From Clostridiales bacterium (lineage in GTDB: Bacteria > Bacillota > Clostridia > Saccharofermentanales > Saccharofermentanaceae), in NCBI GenBank assembly GCA_017940895.1, contig JAGAXM010000018.1:1-64000 (forward strand): a DNA stretch of 64,000 nt, given 5' to 3'. This document shows, piece by piece, positions 1,050-10,996 of this stretch; position 1 is the stretch's first letter, and each line of letters starts with the position of its first letter. The notes beneath the pieces are model-generated. The model was not told where the DNA came from, did not search any database, and saw only the letters and a program-made list of their open reading frames with translations. A program made the position numbers and the translations under genes.

Positions 1050-1097
1050 CCTACAAACGTTTAGGCTATATTGATTTTGGAATGGAGGTTGATAAAT

Positions 1098-1778
1098 ATG
1101 ATAATTGATCCTACATTTGATTTTAGAACTGATGCTAAAGGAAAGGATCCGGATTCTCACAGTCCTACACTGAGAACTTATCAGAAGTATCTATATAGTA
1201 AGCCTCTTCCAAATGGGGAGATTATGGAGTTGTCCGATAAACTCAATTGGAAAGAGTTTTGGTTCAGCAGTGATAGTATTCTTCATGGTTTTTTAGGTTG
1301 GGAAAGCTATAAGCATATAACGTCCCAAGCTGACCAGGAGCTCATTAATAAGTATGTCAAGGAAGATTACTATATCAGCGGAGAAATCATATTTCCATGT
1401 TATAGGGTTGCGGGAACGCAGACTATCAATCAAGCTCGAGGATGTAATCAGAGAATTCGGGATAGGATTGATTTAACAATGGAATGTATCAGAAGATACT
1501 ATCTTGGAGAAGAGAGTCCGTTATATAAGTGTCTATCCGGATACAAACCGTTCTTTGATTTATTTGTTGATTTTAAGGGTTATACGGATTTCTTCTTCAT
1601 GCAGGATATGGTGGCAGAGGACTATTCTTCCATTAAGTTCCTAACTTGGTTTGATGACTTTAATAGTACTTTCCCTCTTCCGCGATCCGTAGATGAGTAT
1701 AACGAGTATCTCAAGCATGTTATTGAGTTCAGCGAGTCTCGTAACAAGAGAATCGTTGAATGGTGTAAAACTCATTGA
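1098..1778 (+). CDS. Uncharacterised protein resembling DUF6994
   Basis: A 226-residue soluble protein begins at the ATG at 1098, which has GGAGG ten bases upstream; an earlier in-frame start at 1071 has no ribosome site. The N-terminus contains DFRTDAKGKDPDSHSPTLR, which I associate from memory with the uncharacterised family DUF6994. The protein is rich in Tyr, Phe and Trp (for example FWFSSDSILHGFLGWESY) and has no signal peptide or membrane segment. No function is known to me. It precedes the three-gene membrane/TerB cassette by 49 bases and may be its first gene or an independent island gene. Confidence 0.75.
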   Translation: MIIDPTFDFRTDAKGKDPDSHSPTLRTYQKYLYSKPLPNGEIMELSDKLNWKEFWFSSDSILHGFLGWESYKHITSQADQELINKYVKEDYYISGEIIFPCYRVAGTQTINQARGCNQRIRDRIDLTMECIRRYYLGEESPLYKCLSGYKPFFDLFVDFKGYTDFFFMQDMVAEDYSSIKFLTWFDDFNSTFPLPRSVDEYNEYLKHVIEFSESRNKRIVEWCKTH

Positions 1779-1827
1779 GCAATGAGAACTATTGGTCGTA
1801 AAAGAGTGTGTTTTGGGAGTTGTATTT

Positions 1828-3423
1828 ATGAATGAATATTTGAGTAAAATTAAGCAACCTCCGGCCATTCTCCCGAATGAAGATGTGTTTAGCTGCATTT
1901 GGCATCAGTATGAAAGAGTTGTATTAGAGAGCCTTCTTACAGCGTTTTGGTTGGATTTTATGATTGATGATATCCACGGTGGCGATGTGGATACTATTCA
2001 TAATGTTAATATAATTGGAATAGATCCATTGATGACATATAAAAATGATTCGAATAGAGACAAATATGCTAACCGAGGTGAATACAGCCATAAGGATGTG
2101 GAAGGACAAGGCACCAACTATCAGCAGATTAAGCATGATGCAAGAGCGGCTTACAGGGAAGATAATAATCAAACAGTTAATGATGTATATGAGAATAAAC
2201 CGCTACATTTTTTATCAAAAGGCAAAGGAAGACCGACTGATAAGAATGCTAACTTGGATCATGTAGTTGCGGCTAAGACAATTCATGATAATCGTGGTAG
2301 AGTCCTTTCGGGTCTTGAGACCAAGGATCTCGCGGATATGGATGAAAACTTAGCTTGGACGAATGAGCATATAAATAAGTCTCTTGGGGATTCAAGTAAA
2401 GCAGATTATGTAGATAAACATTCTGAGTTGTCAGATGAGACTAAAAGCAGGATGATAACAGCAGAACAACAAGCTCAGGCGCAAATGGATAAGAGATTGT
2501 TTCAAGCTTACTATCTAGATCCGAGCAACCCGCAATGTCAGCAGTTTTATCGGGATGCAACTCTTGCTGCAGGTAAACGCGGTATTGAGATGGGCATCCG
2601 TCAAGCTCTTGGCTTTATATTTGTTGAGGTGTGGCTTGTTACGAAGAATGAAGTGCAAAATCTGCCTGCCGGCTGTAGTTTTACTGATATTGTGGAAGCT
2701 GTGACCAAAGGAATAGAGAGAGGCTTTATTAGTGCATTATCTAAATACAAAGAAATACTGGCGAAGTTTGTGGAATGTGGTATTGCAGGTAGCATTGCCA
2801 GTTTAAGCACTACGCTTTGCAATGTCTTTATTACCACATCTAAATCATTTGTTAAGAATATTCGCGAGGTTTCAGCGTCTGTCATAAGATCTTCCAGAGT
2901 ACTATTGCTTAATCCCGATGATTTGGAATTGGGAGATCGGATTAAAATGTCTACAGTTATCTTAGGTACTGGAGCCTGTGTGCTTGCGGGTACTTCTGTT
3001 GGTACGGCTTTGATGGATACTCCTATTGGTGCTATACCGGTTGTAGGAGACGTTGTAATCAGGTTCTGCTCGACACTGGTTAGTGGGCTTTTATCATGCA
3101 CCTTCCTTGTGTATATGGATCGAAGTGAGTTCATAAATGCTGTAGTTGATAGGTTAAATGAGATTCCTACAGAAGTAACAGATATGAAAGAATTGTCCGA
3201 GTATCTAGATCGCTATGCTGCAGAATTATCATGTATAGATTTTGAGCAGTTTAAGCGTGATACTCAAAGAATAGAAGATGATGCTATAAAAGTAATTAGT
3301 GCAAAGGATGATTTACAGCTTAATAGTGTGCTTAAAGACTTAAGTGGATACTTCGAATTGCCTTGGAAGGGAGATTTTGATTCGTTTATGGGTGATCGAG
3401 GGAATCATTTGTCCTTTGAATAA
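1828..3423 (+). CDS. Large protein with a possible HNH-like motif and a membrane domain
   Basis: The start chosen is the ATG at 1828, behind GGGAG, giving 531 residues. Residues about 143-188 read LDHVV, then H153, then DENLAWTNEHINKS. This D-H, N, N spacing resembles the His-Asn core of HNH (beta-beta-alpha metal) nucleases, but the cysteines of zinc-type HNH domains are absent, so the assignment is an inference. Residues about 255-272 and 375-432 are hydrophobic and include Gly-rich segments that should span or insert in the membrane. The remaining C-terminal part is charged and probably cytosolic. It lies 18 bases before the glycine-zipper gene and is presumably co-transcribed with it and with the TerB-like gene. 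I do not recognise the whole protein. Confidence 0.7.
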   Translation: MNEYLSKIKQPPAILPNEDVFSCIWHQYERVVLESLLTAFWLDFMIDDIHGGDVDTIHNVNIIGIDPLMTYKNDSNRDKYANRGEYSHKDVEGQGTNYQQIKHDARAAYREDNNQTVNDVYENKPLHFLSKGKGRPTDKNANLDHVVAAKTIHDNRGRVLSGLETKDLADMDENLAWTNEHINKSLGDSSKADYVDKHSELSDETKSRMITAEQQAQAQMDKRLFQAYYLDPSNPQCQQFYRDATLAAGKRGIEMGIRQALGFIFVEVWLVTKNEVQNLPAGCSFTDIVEAVTKGIERGFISALSKYKEILAKFVECGIAGSIASLSTTLCNVFITTSKSFVKNIREVSASVIRSSRVLLLNPDDLELGDRIKMSTVILGTGACVLAGTSVGTALMDTPIGAIPVVGDVVIRFCSTLVSGLLSCTFLVYMDRSEFINAVVDRLNEIPTEVTDMKELSEYLDRYAAELSCIDFEQFKRDTQRIEDDAIKVISAKDDLQLNSVLKDLSGYFELPWKGDFDSFMGDRGNHLSFE

Positions 3424-3441
3424 GTATGGGGGAACTTTCTT

Positions 3442-4479
3442 ATGCCATTACCGTTAATTCTTGGAATTGGAGCAGGTATTGCAGCTGTTAGTGGTGTTGG
3501 CACCGGTATTAATGGCGGCATCAAAATGAAGAATGCTGACAAAACTATGAAGCGTGCTGTTGAGAAACGTGATGAAGCAGTAGCTAGTTTTGAATTGCAG
3601 AATTCTGTTACGGCTCGCGAAATGGATGATCTCGGTAAACTTGAGTTGGGTATTTGTGAGCAGTTTCAGTCCTTTTCTGATGTTTTAGAGATGATACAAG
3701 GTAGACCGGAGTTTAAAGATTTATCTCATGCTGATGTACAGATACCCCAATATGACCCGGAAGAGTTGAAACGCGTTTCTGTTGGTGCTGGAGTTCTTAT
3801 TGGGGGATTAGGCGGAGCGGCTGTTGGTACTGCTGGTGGATTCGCAGCAGCAGGAGTTACTACTTCTGCAGTAATGGCACTTGGAACTGCTTCTACCGGG
3901 ACTGCTATTGCTTCTTTAAGCGGAGCGGCCGCTACGAATGCTACTCTGGCAGCCATTGGCGGAGGTGCGATAGCCGCCGGCGGAGGGGGTATTGCACTTG
4001 GGACTACCATTTTAGGTGTGTCAACACTGGGTGTAGGATTGCTTGTCGGGGGTACGATTTTTACTATAACAGGTTCAAAACTATCTAAGAAAGCAGATGA
4101 GGCCTACTATCAATCTCTGGAAATTGAGAGGCAGATTAATGAGATCAATGCATATCTGAAGGACCTTAAGATATGTGCTCAGAGGTATAGTTCTCTCTTG
4201 GAACGCATAAAGACTATATATGATAACCGATTTGCTGATTTGAGGAGGATTATTATAGAAGACCGCAAAACAGAATGGTCGCTTTTTACAGAAGAAGAGA
4301 AGCTTGTTACTCAGAATTGTATTCTGTTGGTTGGGCTTCTTTATAAGATGTGTAAGGTTCAGCTTGTAATAAAGGATCCTAATAATTCCGAAACCAATAT
4401 GATCAATGCCGAAGATGTTGAAGGTTGTATGTGTCAAGTAAACAAATCGATTGAAGATTCCATGGGAAAGGACGAATAA
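3442..4479 (+). CDS. Glycine/alanine-rich membrane protein with coiled-coil flank
   Basis: This 345-residue protein follows a GGGGGAA ribosome site. Residues 1-20 are hydrophobic and glycine-rich. Residues about 20-110 are charged and helical. Residues about 112-215 form a long stretch of Gly, Ala, Thr and Val with repeated GxxxG spacing (for example LIGGLGGAAVGTAGG), the glycine-zipper pattern of proteins that pack or oligomerise in membranes. The C-terminal third is charged, with probable coiled coil around residues 215-260. Such zippers occur in pore-forming and membrane-remodelling proteins, but no family is recognised. It sits between the HNH-like/membrane gene and a TerB-like gene, so it may be the membrane effector or the scaffold of that cassette. 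Confidence 0.75.
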   Translation: MPLPLILGIGAGIAAVSGVGTGINGGIKMKNADKTMKRAVEKRDEAVASFELQNSVTAREMDDLGKLELGICEQFQSFSDVLEMIQGRPEFKDLSHADVQIPQYDPEELKRVSVGAGVLIGGLGGAAVGTAGGFAAAGVTTSAVMALGTASTGTAIASLSGAAATNATLAAIGGGAIAAGGGGIALGTTILGVSTLGVGLLVGGTIFTITGSKLSKKADEAYYQSLEIERQINEINAYLKDLKICAQRYSSLLERIKTIYDNRFADLRRIIIEDRKTEWSLFTEEEKLVTQNCILLVGLLYKMCKVQLVIKDPNNSETNMINAEDVEGCMCQVNKSIEDSMGKDE

Positions 4480-4480
4480 T

Positions 4481-4882
4481 ATGTTTTTAGACAGATTGAA
4501 TAATGAAGAGAAAGTAATGTTTTTAGATCTTGCAGTATATGCAGCTCAGTCGAATGGAATAGTAGATGAGGCAGAGTCAAAAATGCTGATGCAGTATTGT
4601 AAAGAAATGGGCATCGCCTTTTATGATGTTTCCAGCATTCATAGTATGGAAGAAGTAAAGAACTGTTTCTCAGTGACAAGTGAAGAAAAGAAACGAATTG
4701 TGGCTTTAGAGTTATTAGGCCTTTGTTACATAGATGGGGATTTCGATAGTGTTGAAAGTGCATTTGCGGAGAAGTTTTCACGAGATATTGGGGTAAGTGA
4801 TGAAGTTTATAAGGTTTTGACCCGAGATATCGATGAATATGTAACTATTCTCAGCATAATTGAAGGACATCTGACAGAGTAA
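4481..4882 (+). CDS. TerB-like protein
   Basis: A 133-residue all-helical acidic protein starts one base after the upstream stop codon, with GGGAAAGG as ribosome site. It shows two related helical halves, each with an acidic loop: NGIVDEAE near residue 25 and YIDGDFDSVE near residue 85. That pattern is the signature of TerB/TerB-like domains, known to bind divalent metal and found in tellurite-resistance operons and in several anti-phage systems such as Shango. No other ter gene (TerC, TerD, TerZ) is present here. It is therefore better read as the sensor or coupling subunit of the three-gene cassette than as part of a classic tellurite operon. Confidence 0.8.
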   Translation: MFLDRLNNEEKVMFLDLAVYAAQSNGIVDEAESKMLMQYCKEMGIAFYDVSSIHSMEEVKNCFSVTSEEKKRIVALELLGLCYIDGDFDSVESAFAEKFSRDIGVSDEVYKVLTRDIDEYVTILSIIEGHLTE

Positions 4883-5271: not shown

Positions 5272-5456
5272 TCCATAAGAATTATCTGTTGAAAATCTTT
5301 TGATTTCAGGCTGGACTATGAATTCCTTGGTGTAAGACTCTGTTTGACACACAGGCTTTTTTGAAGGATTTGTCTAATCGGAATGATACCAAAGCAATAC
5401 GCAACCTCTGTTTGTCTATAGTCGCGCTTGTAGTGGCCTTTATTATTGTTGCTATG

Positions 5457-5480
5457 CCCCACCAATATGGTGGGGTGTTT
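5457..5480 (+). terminator. Intrinsic terminator before the PIN/radical SAM operon
   Basis: CCCCACC and GGTGGGG pair around the loop AATAT, followed by TGTTTTG. It separates the upstream genes from the GTTGC array, which starts seven bases after the stem. Confidence 0.75.
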
Positions 5481-5481
5481 T

Positions 5482-5602
5482 GTTGCGAACGAGAATGAAA
5501 AGTTGCAAAAAATATTGAATGATAATGATAAGTTGCCAATTTGTAAATATAGTTGCAAAAACGTGCGCTTTTATTGATGGAAATGCAACAGGGTGTTATA
5601 TT
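5482..5602 (+). promoter_or_regulatory. Phased GTTGC array and promoter of the PIN/radical SAM operon
   Basis: GTTGC occurs in direct orientation at 5482, 5502, 5532 and 5552, which is spacing of 20, 30 and 20 bases, all whole turns of DNA, so all copies face the same side. The next element is a promoter: TTGATG at 5574-5579, a 17-base spacer, and TATATT at 5597-5602. One inverted copy, GCAAC, lies in the spacer at 5585. The transcription start would be near 5609, about 50 bases before the ATG at 5660. The arrangement places the array where an activator, or a repressor that wraps DNA, would bind. The same layout recurs at 9450-9570. Confidence 0.75.
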
Positions 5603-5659: not shown

Positions 5660-6979
5660 ATGAACGAACGTGTACAGGTTGACTTCTTAAGAAAAAGGAT
5701 GATTGAATTAAGAGAAAAGAATCATAAGTCTCAGTCCGAAATGGCTGAGTTGATTGGATGTAATAAATCAACTCTTTCTCGTGCAGAAAAAATCGGCGGA
5801 GATACTGGATATAAAACAGTTCTCGGATTTGCTATAGATTATTGTGATAGATTAGGACTTACACCAGAGCAAAAGGAACTTTTTCTTCGAGGCGAAAAGG
5901 TGATCGTTACAGACACGTCTGCTTTGCTTAAGAATACGCAGTTGGTTGATGAACTCAGCCAAGAATACAGTATGGTAATTGTACCTGATATTGTTGTTGA
6001 GGAACTGGACAATATCAAAGATAAAAATACCAATAATCTGGCTGCAAAGGCATGGCAGATTTTGAATTCCATTGGCAAGAAAGCCAATGTTGTTACGAGA
6101 TATTATAATGGTGATCCTGATGATGGTAACAATGACAAAAAGATCGTGGCGGTTGCAAAAGCAGCGGCAGACGAATTCAATTGTGAAGTTGATGTTATAA
6201 CAAATGATACTGGCTTTGCTGCTAGGTTGAGTGGGATTGATGGTATCAATGCCTTATATCTTGAAACCTATATAGTTACGAAACAAAACCTTGTTGATAT
6301 AGATAGTCTAAAAAAAATAAATGAATACTACGCTGATAATTACGAAGATATCGATAAAGTTTTAGGTATTACAATTCCTAATGAAGAAGATATAAACGCC
6401 TATTTATCTGAAGGTAATACTCTTATTATTTCAGTGGTGCGTAATAAGAGAGAGCCTATGGAAAGACGAAAAGCGAAGATCAAGTGGTTGATTGATCATG
6501 GTGCCGATGTTAATAAGCGAGATTGTGGAAAGTACTACTTTCCACCGCTTTCTCATGCCGTACAGAATGGTGATTTTGAAATGTTTAAATTCTTGCTGCA
6601 TGATTGCAACGCAAATCCGAATGTTGGTAGTAGGAATCCTCGTGATTCGGGGAAAATAAGGCAGAAGAATGATGGAAATATGCCTCTTATGATTGCTGCA
6701 TGGGATAACAAGAAAGATTTCGTTAGGGAATTATGTAACGATCCAAGAACGAGTTTGAATCAGCAAGATGGTAATGGATTTACAGCTCTTATCAAAGCTT
6801 GCTATTGGGGTTGGCTTGAATCTAGGGATATATTACTCAATGCTGGTGCGGACCCCAAAATTGTTGACCGTGATGGATATACTGCCGAGGATCGTTACCA
6901 TGAGTATCTTGAGACCGGAAGAAGAAAGAATCAGAATTATAAAAAGAAACCGCATTGGGATGGGCAACGCAATAGATGA
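5660..6979 (+). CDS. HTH-PIN-ankyrin fusion protein
   Basis: The ATG at 5660 follows GGAGG and gives 439 residues. Residues about 9-60 are an Xre-type helix-turn-helix (QSEMAELIGCNKSTLSRAE). Residues 81-200 are a PIN domain of the PhoH-associated kind, with acidic residues at D85 (VTDTSALL), E114/E115 (VVEELDNIKD), D159 (NDKKI) and D183 (TNDTGF). All four positions expected for a metal-dependent RNase are present. Residues about 270-410 hold three or four ankyrin repeats (WLIDHGADVNKRD, LNAGADPKIVDRDG). The tail is basic. This looks like a ribonuclease that can bind DNA through the HTH and a partner through the ankyrins. Its stop overlaps the next start (ATGA). The HTH may read the GTTGC array upstream. 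Confidence 0.85.
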   Translation: MNERVQVDFLRKRMIELREKNHKSQSEMAELIGCNKSTLSRAEKIGGDTGYKTVLGFAIDYCDRLGLTPEQKELFLRGEKVIVTDTSALLKNTQLVDELSQEYSMVIVPDIVVEELDNIKDKNTNNLAAKAWQILNSIGKKANVVTRYYNGDPDDGNNDKKIVAVAKAAADEFNCEVDVITNDTGFAARLSGIDGINALYLETYIVTKQNLVDIDSLKKINEYYADNYEDIDKVLGITIPNEEDINAYLSEGNTLIISVVRNKREPMERRKAKIKWLIDHGADVNKRDCGKYYFPPLSHAVQNGDFEMFKFLLHDCNANPNVGSRNPRDSGKIRQKNDGNMPLMIAAWDNKKDFVRELCNDPRTSLNQQDGNGFTALIKACYWGWLESRDILLNAGADPKIVDRDGYTAEDRYHEYLETGRRKNQNYKKKPHWDGQRNR

Positions 6980-7782
6980 TTAACAGAATCTGTATTTCCA
7001 TTAATAACCAATGTAATCTTGGATGCAAGTATTGTCATTTTCACGAGAAAGGGATACTAGAAGACTCAGAGATGAATATCTATGAGATCCTAGATAACGT
7101 GAAAAACTATGCTAAGAGTGATTTCAAAATAGGGTTTGTTGGAAATGGTGAGTGTTTCCTCGTGTGGGATCAACTTAAGTCTTACATTTCTTATATTGAA
7201 AACTATGACAATATTAGTTCATATACCATAACTAATGGAACAGTTTCTCTTACTGATGAAGACTGGATGTTTCTTGAAAGCCACAATGTTAATGTTGGTT
7301 TCTCTTTGGATGGTTATAAGGAGCTTCACAACATGAATCGCTGTGATTCTTTTGACAAGGTTATAAAGAACGTTGAGGAATATAAGCGAGTGACGGGACA
7401 TTATCCTACTTTTAATGCTACCGTTGGCAAGGAAAGTATCCATAATGCAGACAAAGTGATTTCCTTTTTCAAATACTATGGTACCAGAGTGACTTTTTCA
7501 CGAATGATTGGTAAGCAAGGAATATCTCTGCAAGAATACAGAGATTTTCTTTCTCTTGCAGAAAAGCATATATCAATAAGAAGAGGCGGCCTTGATTGCA
7601 CCATGTATGGTGGACAATGCGGAGCAGGTAAGAACAACTATTTTTTTGCTAATGGAAAGGTTTATTACTGTGGTAACTGTATTGATTTACCACCAGTTGG
7701 TGATAGCAGCATGAGATTTGAAGAACTTGAGAAAATCTCTTTACAGTTTGATCGCAACTATTGTTTCAAGGAGTCACTATGA
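6976..7782 (+). CDS. Radical SAM enzyme with SPASM-like cysteines
   Basis: This 268-residue protein carries the radical SAM cluster motif C13-x3-C17-x2-C20 (CNLGCKYC). It also has a GNGE segment at 56-59 in the place of the SAM-binding GGE motif and an SLDG motif at 110-113. The C-terminal part has C208, C215 (QCGAGKN), C232, C235 (YYCGNC) and C263, which resembles a shortened SPASM/twitch domain binding an auxiliary iron-sulfur cluster. Enzymes of this layout modify peptides, proteins or small molecules by radical chemistry. The substrate is unknown; no RiPP precursor is visible nearby. The start overlaps the PIN gene and the stop overlaps the kinase gene, so all are translated together. Confidence 0.85.
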   Translation: MINRICISINNQCNLGCKYCHFHEKGILEDSEMNIYEILDNVKNYAKSDFKIGFVGNGECFLVWDQLKSYISYIENYDNISSYTITNGTVSLTDEDWMFLESHNVNVGFSLDGYKELHNMNRCDSFDKVIKNVEEYKRVTGHYPTFNATVGKESIHNADKVISFFKYYGTRVTFSRMIGKQGISLQEYRDFLSLAEKHISIRRGGLDCTMYGGQCGAGKNNYFFANGKVYYCGNCIDLPPVGDSSMRFEELEKISLQFDRNYCFKESL

Positions 7783-8831
7783 GAATTGGACTGTATGGAA
7801 TGCCAACATCTGGCAAATCATATATTTTAGGTCAGGTGGATTCTGTTAGAGTTATGCATGGCAGCAGAATGCTTCGTCAAATCTGCAATGACTTTGAGCG
7901 CAAGGATGAGGAGCAAAAGAGAATTGTTCGACTAAAATTGGCGAATATATTATCTTCTGAAGATGCTTTTATCATGGATGGTCATTATTCTTTCGGAGAT
8001 AAGATTGCATTCACAGAGAGTGATGGCCGTCTTTATGATGCTTTCTTGTATTTATACATTTCACCGGAGATTCTTAAGAAACGCATGAAGAATTCGGAAC
8101 GTAACAATAAGTACTTGGGTTACGATATTGAGAAATGGCAAAAATATGAGATTGAGAGTTTGAGAAAATACTGCCATAACAATAATAAGGATTTCTATGT
8201 TATAGATAATCCCCCGGAAAATGAATTTGGTGATGTTTCTGAAGTTCTTGAATTCATAGCGGCTGTAGTAAATGGATACAGTTGCTTACGCTTTGCAAAA
8301 GATTGTTCAAACGAAATACTTAACACATGTAAATCAGATACAGTTGTCTTGATGGATGGAGATAAAACTATTACTGTAGAAGATAGTTCTTATGCTGTAT
8401 TTGGATATAATACTCATATTTATGATGGAAACTTTTACACTGGATTTCAATCTTGGAAACAGGAAAAGGAATTTAAGTCATACAGTTTTGATCGTATAAC
8501 TGAAATGCCAGTTTCCTTAAATGAAACAGTGTGTAAGGCCATTACAAATGATACATACATATTAACTTCTGGGCACAAACGGGTGTGGCATTATATTTCA
8601 CAGCAGTTAGGTATTCCCTTTTATCAGGGAGTGGAGATGGCTGCTGAAACCAAGATGTATATAACAAGAATTCTTCAACATGTTGGCAAAAGAGTAATTG
8701 CATATGGTGATGGCATGAATGATTACTATATGTTAAAGCAAGCAGATACAGGATATCTAGTAACCAAGAAGGATGGAACTATTAGTAGATCACTAAATGA
8801 CATGGATTTGGAGGGGATAAGTTTTGTTTGA
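7779..8831 (+). CDS. P-loop nucleotide kinase fused to a HAD phosphatase
   Basis: From the ATG at 7779 (ATGA overlap with the radical SAM stop, ribosome site AAGGAG) the product has 350 residues. Residues 1-165 are a small P-loop kinase-like domain with Walker A GMPTSGKS at 7-14, a DGHY segment at 67-70 and an Arg/Lys-rich lid near 98-112, as in nucleoside or nucleotide kinases. Residues about 185-345 are a HAD phosphatase: DGDKT with nucleophile D193, TSG at 263-265 as motif II, K292 as a possible motif III, and GDGMND at 310-315. One polypeptide thus adds and removes phosphate, probably on a nucleotide-like compound. The fusion is unusual, and the neighbouring PRTase supports a nucleotide substrate. 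Confidence 0.8.
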   Translation: MRIGLYGMPTSGKSYILGQVDSVRVMHGSRMLRQICNDFERKDEEQKRIVRLKLANILSSEDAFIMDGHYSFGDKIAFTESDGRLYDAFLYLYISPEILKKRMKNSERNNKYLGYDIEKWQKYEIESLRKYCHNNNKDFYVIDNPPENEFGDVSEVLEFIAAVVNGYSCLRFAKDCSNEILNTCKSDTVVLMDGDKTITVEDSSYAVFGYNTHIYDGNFYTGFQSWKQEKEFKSYSFDRITEMPVSLNETVCKAITNDTYILTSGHKRVWHYISQQLGIPFYQGVEMAAETKMYITRILQHVGKRVIAYGDGMNDYYMLKQADTGYLVTKKDGTISRSLNDMDLEGISFV

Positions 8832-9327
8832 ACTTGAAAAGAATGATGAGGTCAATAAGTTAATTGAAATAACGAAGTCAAATTCAGGAATTTCAGGACC
8901 GGAGCTTTGCAAGGCTCATATGGAATTGGGTAGACGATTGGCTGAGAGTATGCAAGGGTTTGAGCCAAACGATACCACAATTGTAGCACTGCTCAGAGGA
9001 GGCTTTTTCTTTGCTGAAGGTATGTATTTCTCGATGGGGTGTAAATTCTATACATATGATCCCAAACACGAGGAGTTTGTTCGACCGAATACTAAGAATA
9101 TTATAATAGTCGACTCTGTTATTAGTACTGGAAGAACAATTAAGAAAATACTAACTCCAGATATGCATATTGCCTGCTGTGTTATTAACGAAAATGCTGT
9201 GGCAAGTTTTGAAAAGCAGCTATATACGGTAAGAGTATCAAAGAATTCGTTTGTTGGTGAAGAAGTAAAAATACAAATCGGAAATGTTGGTCCCGACACC
9301 ACAATGCGTTTGTTTAATCAGATTTAA
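8824..9327 (+). CDS. Phosphoribosyltransferase, uracil-PRTase-like
   Basis: A 167-residue protein starts at a TTG at 8824, eight bases inside the kinase gene and behind GGAGGGG. The PRPP-binding loop is clear: NIIIVDSVISTGRT at residues 92-105. Further hallmarks are VALLRGGFFFAEG at 54-66, like the ILRAG region of uracil phosphoribosyltransferases, and the C-terminal GNVGPDTTMRLF, which parallels their GDAGDRLFGT tail. It should transfer ribose 5-phosphate from PRPP to a base. It is shorter than true uracil PRTases (about 208 residues), and its hood region differs, so the base may not be uracil. The gene ends the four-gene operon and is followed by a strong terminator. Confidence 0.8.
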   Translation: MFELEKNDEVNKLIEITKSNSGISGPELCKAHMELGRRLAESMQGFEPNDTTIVALLRGGFFFAEGMYFSMGCKFYTYDPKHEEFVRPNTKNIIIVDSVISTGRTIKKILTPDMHIACCVINENAVASFEKQLYTVRVSKNSFVGEEVKIQIGNVGPDTTMRLFNQI

Positions 9328-9351
9328 ACAGGACAAACCGAAAGATATCGT

Positions 9352-9379
9352 AAAAACAGGTCAGCTCTGACCTGTTTTT
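9352..9379. terminator. Strong bidirectional terminator after the PRTase gene
   Basis: A perfect 12-bp stem, AAAAACAGGTCA with TGACCTGTTTTT, encloses a GCTC loop. It closes the four-gene operon 24 bases after its stop and, like the terminator at 5457, is followed directly by a GTTGC array. Confidence 0.9.
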
Positions 9380-9399
9380 GTTTGTTTGGAAGGTTCATC

Positions 9400-9570
9400 G
9401 TTGCAGAAAGTATAAAAAAGTTGCAAAAAGACCATCAACGACAATAACTGTTGCAGAACGGTTGCGGCGGTTGCAAGAAACAGAGATGAGGAACGCTATG
9501 GTGCAACTTTGTTGCGTCTGTTGCGAATATGCCTGAAAGCGTTGCGGAAAATGCAACGACTCGATATGAT
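9400..9570 (+). promoter_or_regulatory. Second phased GTTGC array and promoter, upstream of the NERD gene
   Basis: Direct GTTGC copies start at 9400, 9420, 9450, 9461, 9470, 9511, 9520 and 9541; inverted GCAAC copies start at 9503 and 9553. The subset 9400/9420/9450/9470 repeats the 0/20/50/70 spacing of the array at 5482. A promoter follows: TTGCGG at 9542-9547, 17 bases, TATGAT at 9565-9570. Aligned on the two -35 boxes, sites 9450, 9470 and 9520 match 5482, 5502 and 5552 exactly, and the inverted copy in the spacer starts 11 bases after the -35 start in both. The transcription start would be near 9577, before the ATG at 9620. Confidence 0.75.
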
Positions 9571-9619
9571 GAAATCACAAAGCAAAAAACCCCGCAAACA
9601 ACAAAAGGAGGGCAAGAAA

Positions 9620-10594
9620 ATGAAACAGACAAGAGTAAACGAGATTATGAACAGAATGACAGCATTCGAGAACGACAAGTACACCAGAGATGAGATGTTA
9701 AATGAGTTCTTCAAGCTCCAGAAAGAAATGGCAACAATCGCTTTCGGAGAGACTCTCTCAGAGGAAAAGAGATTCTACGATATCTCAGATCACTACTCAG
9801 ACAAAAACAGAAGAAACAACAGAGTATCAGCTCAGAAGATGGAAACATTCAGAAAGGAGTGTGGCGCAGCAACAAACTACATTAAGGCTGAGATTTCCGG
9901 ACGCAAGGGAGAGAGTAAGGCATTTTACAAGCTTAACTACCTTCTGTCTACACACAGCCTGAGAAAGAACGTAGAGATCAGCAATGGTAACAGAAAGACA
10001 GAGATTGACATCTTAGTAGTCACAGAAAAGGCAGCGTTCATCATTGAGGTTAAGAACACAAAGAGAGACATCTTCATTGATGAACATGGTCAGTACTATC
10101 GCACAGGAGAATTTCTAAAGTGGGATTCAGATATCGGAAGCAAGCTGGCAATGAGAGAGGAGTTTGTAAAAATAGCCGCTGAGAAGGCCGGTATAAAAAA
10201 CCTGAAGGTAGAGAAGGTCGTTGTCTTTACAGACAACAGAGTAAGAGTTCAGAACAAGTGCAAGAGCATAAGAACCTGTTTCCTTAGCCAGTTGACGTCA
10301 GTAATCGATACCTACAGAGGCGAAAAGGCGTTAACACTTGAGAATATCGAGACTCTGCTGAGAGCAGTAGACGAGATGACAACAAACTCAAGCTACGTTC
10401 CGGAAATCGATATCAACAAGTTCAAGGCAGACTTCGCAGAGATCGTAGCAACAATGGATTACGAGACAACAACAGAACCTCAAATGGTCTGGTTGAAGAC
10501 TTGGAGAACCTTAGTCTCATCGCTGACTCTTAGAAGGGTGGCATCACTTTTTCTGACAATCGGAACAGTAGCAGCAATTGTAAGGTTGGTTTAA
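9620..10594 (+). CDS. NERD domain (nuclease-related) protein with C-terminal membrane anchor
   Basis: The ATG at 9620 lies behind AGGAGGGC and gives 324 residues; the frame stays open further upstream, but that part is the GTTGC array. Residues about 90-215 form a NERD domain, a restriction-endonuclease-fold nuclease. GRKGESKAFYKL at 94-105 carries the first conserved acid, TEIDILVV at 127-134 and FIIEVKNTK at 140-148 give the E/D...E-x-K core. The N-terminal 80 residues are charged and helical. The C-terminal end (about 305-324) is hydrophobic and could anchor the protein in the membrane. NERD proteins are common in defence islands and plasmids. The promoter resembles that of the PIN/radical SAM operon. 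Confidence 0.85.
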   Translation: MKQTRVNEIMNRMTAFENDKYTRDEMLNEFFKLQKEMATIAFGETLSEEKRFYDISDHYSDKNRRNNRVSAQKMETFRKECGAATNYIKAEISGRKGESKAFYKLNYLLSTHSLRKNVEISNGNRKTEIDILVVTEKAAFIIEVKNTKRDIFIDEHGQYYRTGEFLKWDSDIGSKLAMREEFVKIAAEKAGIKNLKVEKVVVFTDNRVRVQNKCKSIRTCFLSQLTSVIDTYRGEKALTLENIETLLRAVDEMTTNSSYVPEIDINKFKADFAEIVATMDYETTTEPQMVWLKTWRTLVSSLTLRRVASLFLTIGTVAAIVRLV

Positions 10595-10612
10595 ATCAAG
10601 GAGGAAAGACTT

Positions 10613-10759
10613 ATGAATGACATCGCAAAAGGAATGATCATCGTACTTATTATCCTGTACATCGTGTCTCCTGTTGACGCTTGCCCGGGTCCAATCGATG
10701 ACATCATATTAGCTCTAATAGGATTTGCAGCTGCTAAACATCACGTAATTGATGCTTAA
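10613..10759 (+). CDS. 48-residue membrane protein resembling a minimal DUF1232/YkvA domain
   Basis: A small frame with a perfect ribosome site (AAGGAGGAAAG) encodes a protein with one hydrophobic segment (MIIVLIILYIVSPVDACPG) followed by PIDDIILALIGFAAAK. The SPVD-x-PGPIDD pattern matches the core SPIDLIPDFIP motif of DUF1232 (YkvA-like) membrane domains, known as short proteins of unknown role. It starts 18 bases after the NERD gene and is probably in the same operon. Confidence 0.65.
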   Translation: MNDIAKGMIIVLIILYIVSPVDACPGPIDDIILALIGFAAAKHHVIDA

Positions 10760-10777
10760 GAAAAGGAGGATCTCATA

Positions 10778-10996
10778 ATGAATATCTATACAACAAACGA
10801 ATGGAAAGGCTACGGAAAGCAAAACTATTACAGGAATGAGTACCGATTGGAAGGAGGTGAAGTTACTAAATACAAATGCCATCGATTTAAGAGCTTTGAT
10901 GGACACGAGAACAGTTGGAACGAGGAAGAATCATTCGAAACATCGTGGTCGTTAAACGATCAAACAATGCCGGAATGGTTAAGACAGTATTTTTAA
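10778..10996 (+). CDS. Hypothetical protein, 72 residues
   Basis: It has an excellent ribosome site (AAAAGGAGGATCTC) and starts 18 bases after the small membrane gene, so it belongs to the same transcript. The product is hydrophilic and rich in aromatic residues, Asn and Glu (for example WKGYGKQNYY, ESFETSWSLND). No domain is recognised. Tight packing with good ribosome sites supports it as a real gene. Confidence 0.6.
   Translation: MNIYTTNEWKGYGKQNYYRNEYRLEGGEVTKYKCHRFKSFDGHENSWNEEESFETSWSLNDQTMPEWLRQYF

Follow-up and report, generated by a model that had tools for sequence, protein, structure and literature searches.

Several described bacterial systems share parts with a cassette of four overlapping genes found at positions 5660 to 9327 of a 64,000-nucleotide stretch of DNA from a Clostridiales bacterium (contig JAGAXM010000018.1; the whole stretch is referred to here as the window). 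The four genes encode a protein with helix-turn-helix (HTH), PIN RNase, and ankyrin domains (PIN-Ank), a radical S-adenosylmethionine (SAM) protein, a kinase fused to a haloacid dehalogenase-type (HAD) phosphatase, and a phosphoribosyltransferase (PRTase). Prokaryotic viperins (pVips) likewise combine a radical SAM protein with a nucleotide kinase in a mobile locus and have a NERD protein nearby, whereas the cassette lies outside the viperin family by score, has an extra cysteine region, and adds uracil PRTase (UPRTase)-like and HAD partners and a PIN-Ank regulator-effector. The type II PIN toxin-antitoxin systems (VapBC) share with it a PIN RNase and a promoter with operator repeats; in the cassette, however, RNase and DNA-binding domain are parts of one protein, there is no antitoxin gene, and three enzyme genes are attached. 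Ter-linked systems for which a nucleoside-like metabolite is predicted, and which Anantharaman in 2012 is said to have described (cited in PMC10250203), reportedly contain a PRTase and a HAD protein and suggest, as the cassette does, a nucleotide-like product, although the PRTase of the cassette falls outside the Ter-linked Pfam class by score and no Ter protein occurs at the other cassette loci. The defense systems DS-3 and DS-5 need their PIN RNase for defense, and DS-5 is likely no toxin-antitoxin system (PMC13092281); their architecture is different, and that source mentions no nucleotide enzymes or ankyrins for them. Prophage defense hotspots (P2/P4 and others) carry small variable cargo at a fixed prophage place, as the cassette does (PMC9122126), but in other hosts and with other genes, and the defense role of the cassette is predicted only. 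No description of this gene combination was found in family libraries or the accessible literature (subscription papers and preprints were outside the scope), in line with an earlier interpretation made from the letters of the DNA (the sequence-only reading). What is new here is the gene set and its layout.

The four open reading frames (ORFs) overlap by 4, 4, and 8 bases and lie between two terminators, as follows (aa, amino acids).

5454 to 5478, + strand: terminator dividing the operon from an upstream TerB-like region, with an 11-pair stem followed by a T-rich tail
5660 to 6979, + strand: HTH-PIN-ankyrin protein, 439 aa, type A, with HTH at about residues 8 to 75, PIN at 80 to 205, and ankyrins at 246 to 412; more than 30 relatives
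6976 to 7782, + strand: radical SAM protein of 268 aa that carries CxxxCxxC plus a short Cys region resembling SPASM/twitch
7779 to 8831, + strand: 350-aa fusion of an adenylate-kinase-like kinase with a HAD of the phosphoserine phosphatase type
8824 to 9327, + strand: uracil-phosphoribosyltransferase-like PRTase, 167 aa, with a TTG start
9350 to 9381, + strand: operon terminator, with a 14-pair stem

The sequence-only reading had proposed these gene families as one functional unit ending at a terminator. The ORFs and the terminator were found where it had placed them, and Pfam upheld the assignments for the first protein (PIN_4, 2.6e-12; Ank_2, 2.1e-18; HTH_3, 1.2e-4) and for the enzymes (Radical_SAM, 9.9e-13; weak matches to AAA_17, 1.4e-5, and to HAD families, 7e-4 at best; Pribosyltran, 3.8e-6). 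Viral contigs, together with a single scan of GTDB genomes using a kinase-HAD alignment, yielded 31 further loci, nearly all from Lachnospiraceae or other Clostridia, and a wider search added three more (34 other loci in total, mostly Lachnospiraceae); most are metagenome assemblies. Gene order is identical to that of the window in all 31 except three decayed copies. In one of these (L034), a single deletion took out the radical SAM gene and the end of the ankyrin region, another (L052) is 5' truncated, and the third (L058) lost part of the kinase-HAD gene and the PRTase gene while PIN-Ank and radical SAM remained intact; no PRTase was found anywhere in the latter genome, which is a single metagenome-assembled genome (MAG). 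Four other loci (L038, L039, L050, and L051) are incomplete solely through contig ends. Because the same four genes recur in the same order in other genomes and in viral contigs, the arrangement did not arise by chance. It is nearly certain that they form a conserved operon, and the proposal of a single unit held, having passed the check set by the sequence-only reading, co-occurrence of the genes in other genomes.

PIN-Ank occurs in three types (A, B, and C), which were labeled by eye on the basis of HTH alignment and identity. These types are exchanged freely relative to the enzyme set, and the upstream array varies according to HTH type. Pairwise identities of radical SAM and kinase-HAD proteins are correlated (rho of 0.77), and those of PIN-Ank show no such relationship to either (about −0.05). 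For example, the radical SAM and kinase-HAD proteins of L048 and L051 are 81 to 87% identical, with only 29% identity between their PIN-Ank proteins. Placing the PIN-Ank types on the enzyme trees requires 8 to 9 changes, and the well-supported branches alone require at least 3 to 4 for types A and B. Between types, identity is 29 to 46% in the ankyrins (40 to 46% in their second half, which is the best kept), 18 to 29% in the HTH, and 9 to 16% in the linker. Since the ankyrins are the best-kept part, they most likely contact something constant, which may be the enzyme product, an enzyme, or a common target.

The promoter region of the operon contains a phased repeat.

5482 to 5556, + strand: operator array A1, with GTTGC at 5482, 5502, 5532, and 5552 (spacing 20-30-20)
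5574 to 5602, + strand: promoter TTGATG-N17-TATATT, with an inverted GCAAC at 5585 to 5589 in the spacer

One further GTTGC is found near this array, at 5448. The inverted operator copy between −35 and −10 is positioned alike in other type A loci, and arrays are phased either 20-30-20 or 20-13-20. A three-site GTTGC pattern has two matches in the window against none in 100 shuffles and is confined to cassette loci in 11 carrier genomes, and the four-site pattern occurs in the 2.65-Mb genome at this locus only, in A1 and in a second array. All 14 loci with a type A HTH have two to seven GTTGC in the 300 bp upstream (0.2 to 0.4 expected from simple shuffles), and none of the 14 type B or C loci has two. 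In 7 of the 11 type B loci, TGTGC takes its place, in three to nine copies with a phasing of their own. Two loci found after this rule was stated, L103 and L104, both obey it. Retrieval of viral contigs by operator patterns alone also returned cassette contigs (L025, L072, L076, and L079), along with others that were set aside as repeat-rich stretches (L071, L073, L074, L077, and L078) or as an unrelated prophage regulator (L075). In this last contig, GTTGC-rich repeats precede an HTH regulator gene at about 5270; the operator word is similar and probably independent. At L035 and L036, two additional ORFs (216 and 100 aa) stand before a type C PIN-Ank that lacks an operator array.

The HTH is the obvious candidate reader of the array, with binding inferred, and judging from these sequence patterns PIN-Ank very probably represses its own promoter in addition to being a predicted RNase. 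Autorepression would act through the arrays, and we consider this highly likely. The co-swapping of HTH type and operator represents a natural experiment in repressor-operator recognition and provides two predicted DNA motifs.

A second array lies downstream of the operon terminator, before a gene encoding a NERD-domain protein.

9400 to 9545, + strand: operator array A2, eight GTTGC before the NERD transcript
9542 to 9570, + strand: candidate NERD promoter TTGCGG-N17-TATGAT, with GCAAC at 9553 to 9557 in the spacer, as read from the sequence
9620 to 10594, + strand: NERD-domain protein with a hydrophobic C terminus (NERD, 9.9e-13); accessory
10613 to 10759, + strand: small membrane ORF of the NERD module, 48 aa, read from the sequence; similar ORFs in the same place in four loci
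10778 to 10996, + strand: small acidic Tyr/Trp-rich ORF of the NERD module, 72 aa; relatives in L025, L027, L043, and L048

A NERD gene follows the cassette in 9 of the 31 other loci and also in L104, and in the type A loci where it follows, the same array precedes it. The NERD transcript (9400 to 10996) is probably coregulated with the operon. Because a second GTTGC array at L057 (11601 to 11701) precedes a lipoprotein gene in place of the NERD gene, it appears that the regulon can take other cargo. Small conserved ORFs (approximately 64, 70, and 72 aa) were also seen after the NERD gene in L025 to L027, L047, L048, and L104, and those that were compared with PHROGs had no useful family match. 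The sequence-only reading had the genes of the unit right at 5660 to 9327; however, its bounds missed the promoter and array (5482 to 5602) and the NERD transcript, and it overlooked three features: the probable autorepression by PIN-Ank through phased arrays, the NERD module that shares this array, and the exchange of PIN-Ank types relative to the enzyme set.

In two genomes (L103 and L104), the kinase-HAD and PRTase are fused into a single protein of 540 to 547 aa, and because they form one polypeptide there, kinase, HAD, and PRTase are placed in one pathway. That the radical SAM enzyme works in this same pathway with them is a conclusion in which we have high confidence. Structures were predicted for the PRTase (pLDDT of 89) and the kinase-HAD protein (pLDDT of 91). 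The 14 best PDB matches of the PRTase model (TMq of 0.62 to 0.73) consist of uracil PRTases and of unnamed proteins sharing their fold. The protein has the UPRTase fold and motifs (LRxG, a one-acid phosphoribosyl pyrophosphate [PRPP] loop, and a C-terminal GxxD..RLF), shared with the UPRTase of the host as ILRAG/LLRGG, LDPMLATG/VDSVISTG, and GDAGDRIF/GPDTTMRLF, but its score of 17.6 bits is below the Pfam UPRTase cutoff of 27 bits. The kinase model matches adenylate kinase (OdinAK, TMt of 0.67 to 0.74), and the HAD part matches phosphoserine phosphatase. Among the 50 structural matches listed for the kinase-HAD protein, most of them adenylate kinases, phosphoserine phosphatases, or P-type ATPases, there was no Pnkp, and RNA end repair of the T4 Pnkp type was rejected on this ground and on that of the approximately 70 residues between HAD motifs I and II in the alignment. 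In the radical SAM protein, C13, C17, and C20 of the CxxxCxxC core are invariant in 27 sequences, as are C208, C215, C232, C235, and C263 of the C-terminal region, where G227 is nearly invariant. Core and C-terminal Cys cluster with GX4C together match the SPASM/twitch pattern, with cluster binding predicted. The nearest sequence models are SPASM peptide maturases (HxsB, 3e-23; also the radical SAM entry 5wgg and anSME). Overall, the simplest reading of the enzyme product is a modified pyrimidine-type nucleotide, which we regard as moderately probable, and the earlier proposal that these enzymes are fit to build a nucleotide-like compound agrees with the UPRTase-like, adenylate-kinase-like, and HAD assignments and with the fusion.

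The PIN domain, which had been proposed as a possible effector and is a probable one, has the four catalytic acids of a PIN RNase (D85, E114/E115, D159, and D183 in the window), and they are kept in nearly all copies. Where PIN-Ank is duplicated, one copy may be degenerate: the first copy of L024 and of L041 is degenerate, with D changed to H, and the catalytic residues are kept by the second, which lacks the HTH, and in L057, the second of two tandem copies is degenerate and the other keeps them. The exception is L042, where a degenerate copy is followed by only a remnant. CBASS and CRISPR type III signaling were rejected, as the cassette contains no cyclase and no CARF sensor; a CARF_PIN match covers the PIN part alone (residues 79 to 213). 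A type II toxin-antitoxin arrangement was likewise rejected, since besides the enzymes no gene is kept beside PIN-Ank in all loci.

The carriers are gut and rumen bacteria, and the cassette is located in prophages and other mobile DNA. Several cassettes lie in prophages between endolysin and recombinases. Phage structural genes upstream are common to L024, L026, L048, and L051; a shared endolysin-type gene lies 178 to 297 bp before the cassette in L026, L048, and L051, an amidase-lysozyme gene precedes it in L024, and serine recombinases are near it in L024 to L027. Carriage is sporadic: the cassette occurs in 6 of 397 genomes from the Fusibacillus family and in 3 of 391 from its class, counts that take in previously known carriers and so are no clean random sample, and in 1 of 115 genomes in the family of the window. 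The kinase-HAD protein was found in none of 147 relatives of the host, in which weak matches cover the HAD end only, within P-type-ATPase-like frames of mostly 600 to 1000 aa, and the cassette PRTase was found in none of the 114 other genomes of the host's family. The phage and plasmid record collections yielded no kinase-HAD relative, and a partial match in the phylum (G290; 50 residues, 9e-6) was left out of the counts. In the window, the cassette lies in a low-GC stretch (37 to 42%) that ends near 11.5 kb, the rest being mostly 46 to 52%. Because of this stretch and because no close relative has the cassette, it was most likely acquired horizontally by the host.

The reading that we prefer, and hold tentatively, is that of a mobile, often prophage-borne conflict cassette in which a nucleotide would be sensed via the ankyrins with PIN as the effector. 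PIN-Ank would bind the phased GTTGC array via its HTH and repress its own promoter and the NERD transcript, a step for which the inference is strong. The PRTase would attach a base resembling uracil to PRPP, yielding a nucleotide for the radical SAM enzyme to modify, and the kinase and phosphatase would set its phosphorylation state. The ankyrin part may sense this nucleotide or may dock an enzyme. Infection by another phage might then shift the nucleotide pool, such that repression is released and the PIN RNase is activated, and this RNase would halt phage or cell RNA metabolism. We consider the case for an anti-phage role to be evenly balanced, and that for ankyrin sensing with PIN as effector falls somewhat short of even. 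The fullest version, in which a new radical-SAM-modified pyrimidine nucleotide made by three enzyme proteins serves immune signaling and its ankyrin reader, at once repressor and RNase, is swapped jointly with its operator against a constant pathway, is doubtful. If the model is true, bacterial immunity would gain a new nucleotide, either a signal or an antiviral, and one protein would act as sensor, repressor, and RNase. Several points weigh against it: the trigger and nucleotide binding by the ankyrins are guesses, homology of the PRTase to UPRTases is by structure and motif only with a sequence score under the Pfam cutoff, SPASM enzymes that modify peptides are closer to the radical SAM protein than nucleotide enzymes are, no operator is recognized for type C or for part of type B, and several copies sit alone among housekeeping genes.

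A radical SAM enzyme with a nucleotide kinase is also the logic of prokaryotic viperins, and the cassette could make an antiviral nucleotide that poisons the polymerase of the invading phage, with HTH-PIN-Ank mainly a switch. The adenylate-kinase-like fold, weak PADLOC viperin matches (1.1e-12), and the presence under the same operator of NERD, a PADLOC viperin-associated domain (4.4e-5), are consistent with this. However, the curated viperin model gives 38.2 bits against a cutoff of 180, which excludes the protein from that family, the SPASM-like Cys region is extra, and the conserved PIN catalytic residues would be needless for a mere switch, so that we judge this alternative unlikely. HTH autoregulation, a PIN RNase typical of toxin-antitoxin loci, and mobile and prophage placement would fit addiction or lysogeny maintenance, in which the PIN toxin is silenced by the product of the enzymes and a cell that loses the element dies. 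There is no antitoxin gene, though, and the DNA-binding domain is fused to the RNase. Furthermore, L058 retains an intact PIN-Ank with a broken kinase-HAD gene and no PRTase found, which a constitutive toxin should forbid; as this is one MAG, it is mild evidence against addiction and against the earlier suggestion of an antitoxin-like metabolite, and we consider addiction improbable. Similarly low is the probability that a peptide, or PIN-Ank itself, is the substrate modified by the SPASM-like radical SAM enzyme, with the other enzymes supplying a nucleotide cofactor: its best sequence relatives are peptide maturases and the NERD module has small conserved ORFs, but the four-gene core has no small ORF, those of the NERD module are absent from most loci, and the PIN-Ank tails are not conserved. 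All three nucleotide-enzyme folds are present in salvage, but an ordinary nucleotide salvage or cofactor pathway on mobile DNA is very improbable given that the host encodes its own full-length UPRTase (267.6 bits) and given the strict linkage to the HTH-PIN-Ank RNase, the sporadic carriage, and the prophage placement.

The surroundings of the chromosomal copies are mixed. Proximity to known defense genes, which the sequence-only reading had suggested as a check, was seen for some copies (Wadjet, DpdF, PsyrT, AbiD, or McrBC genes) but not for those among housekeeping genes, and by this uncontrolled comparison the support for enrichment in defense islands is weak. The same reading had linked the operon to Ter systems through a TerB-like gene upstream. 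This gene (4451 to 4882) is real, although it scores 22.4 bits against the Pfam cutoff of 24.4 and is separated from the operon by the terminator at 5454 to 5478; it and its neighbors occur in none of the 31 other cassette loci, and the Ter link was dropped. The region from 1071 to 4882, which contains a DUF6994 protein, then two proteins matching the PADLOC phage-defense candidates PDC-M40B (4e-31) and PDC-M09A (2e-29), and then the TerB-like gene, is possibly a separate candidate system. At the left contig edge, an ORF at 50 to 472 resembles, as judged by eye, the end of an IS66-type transposase.

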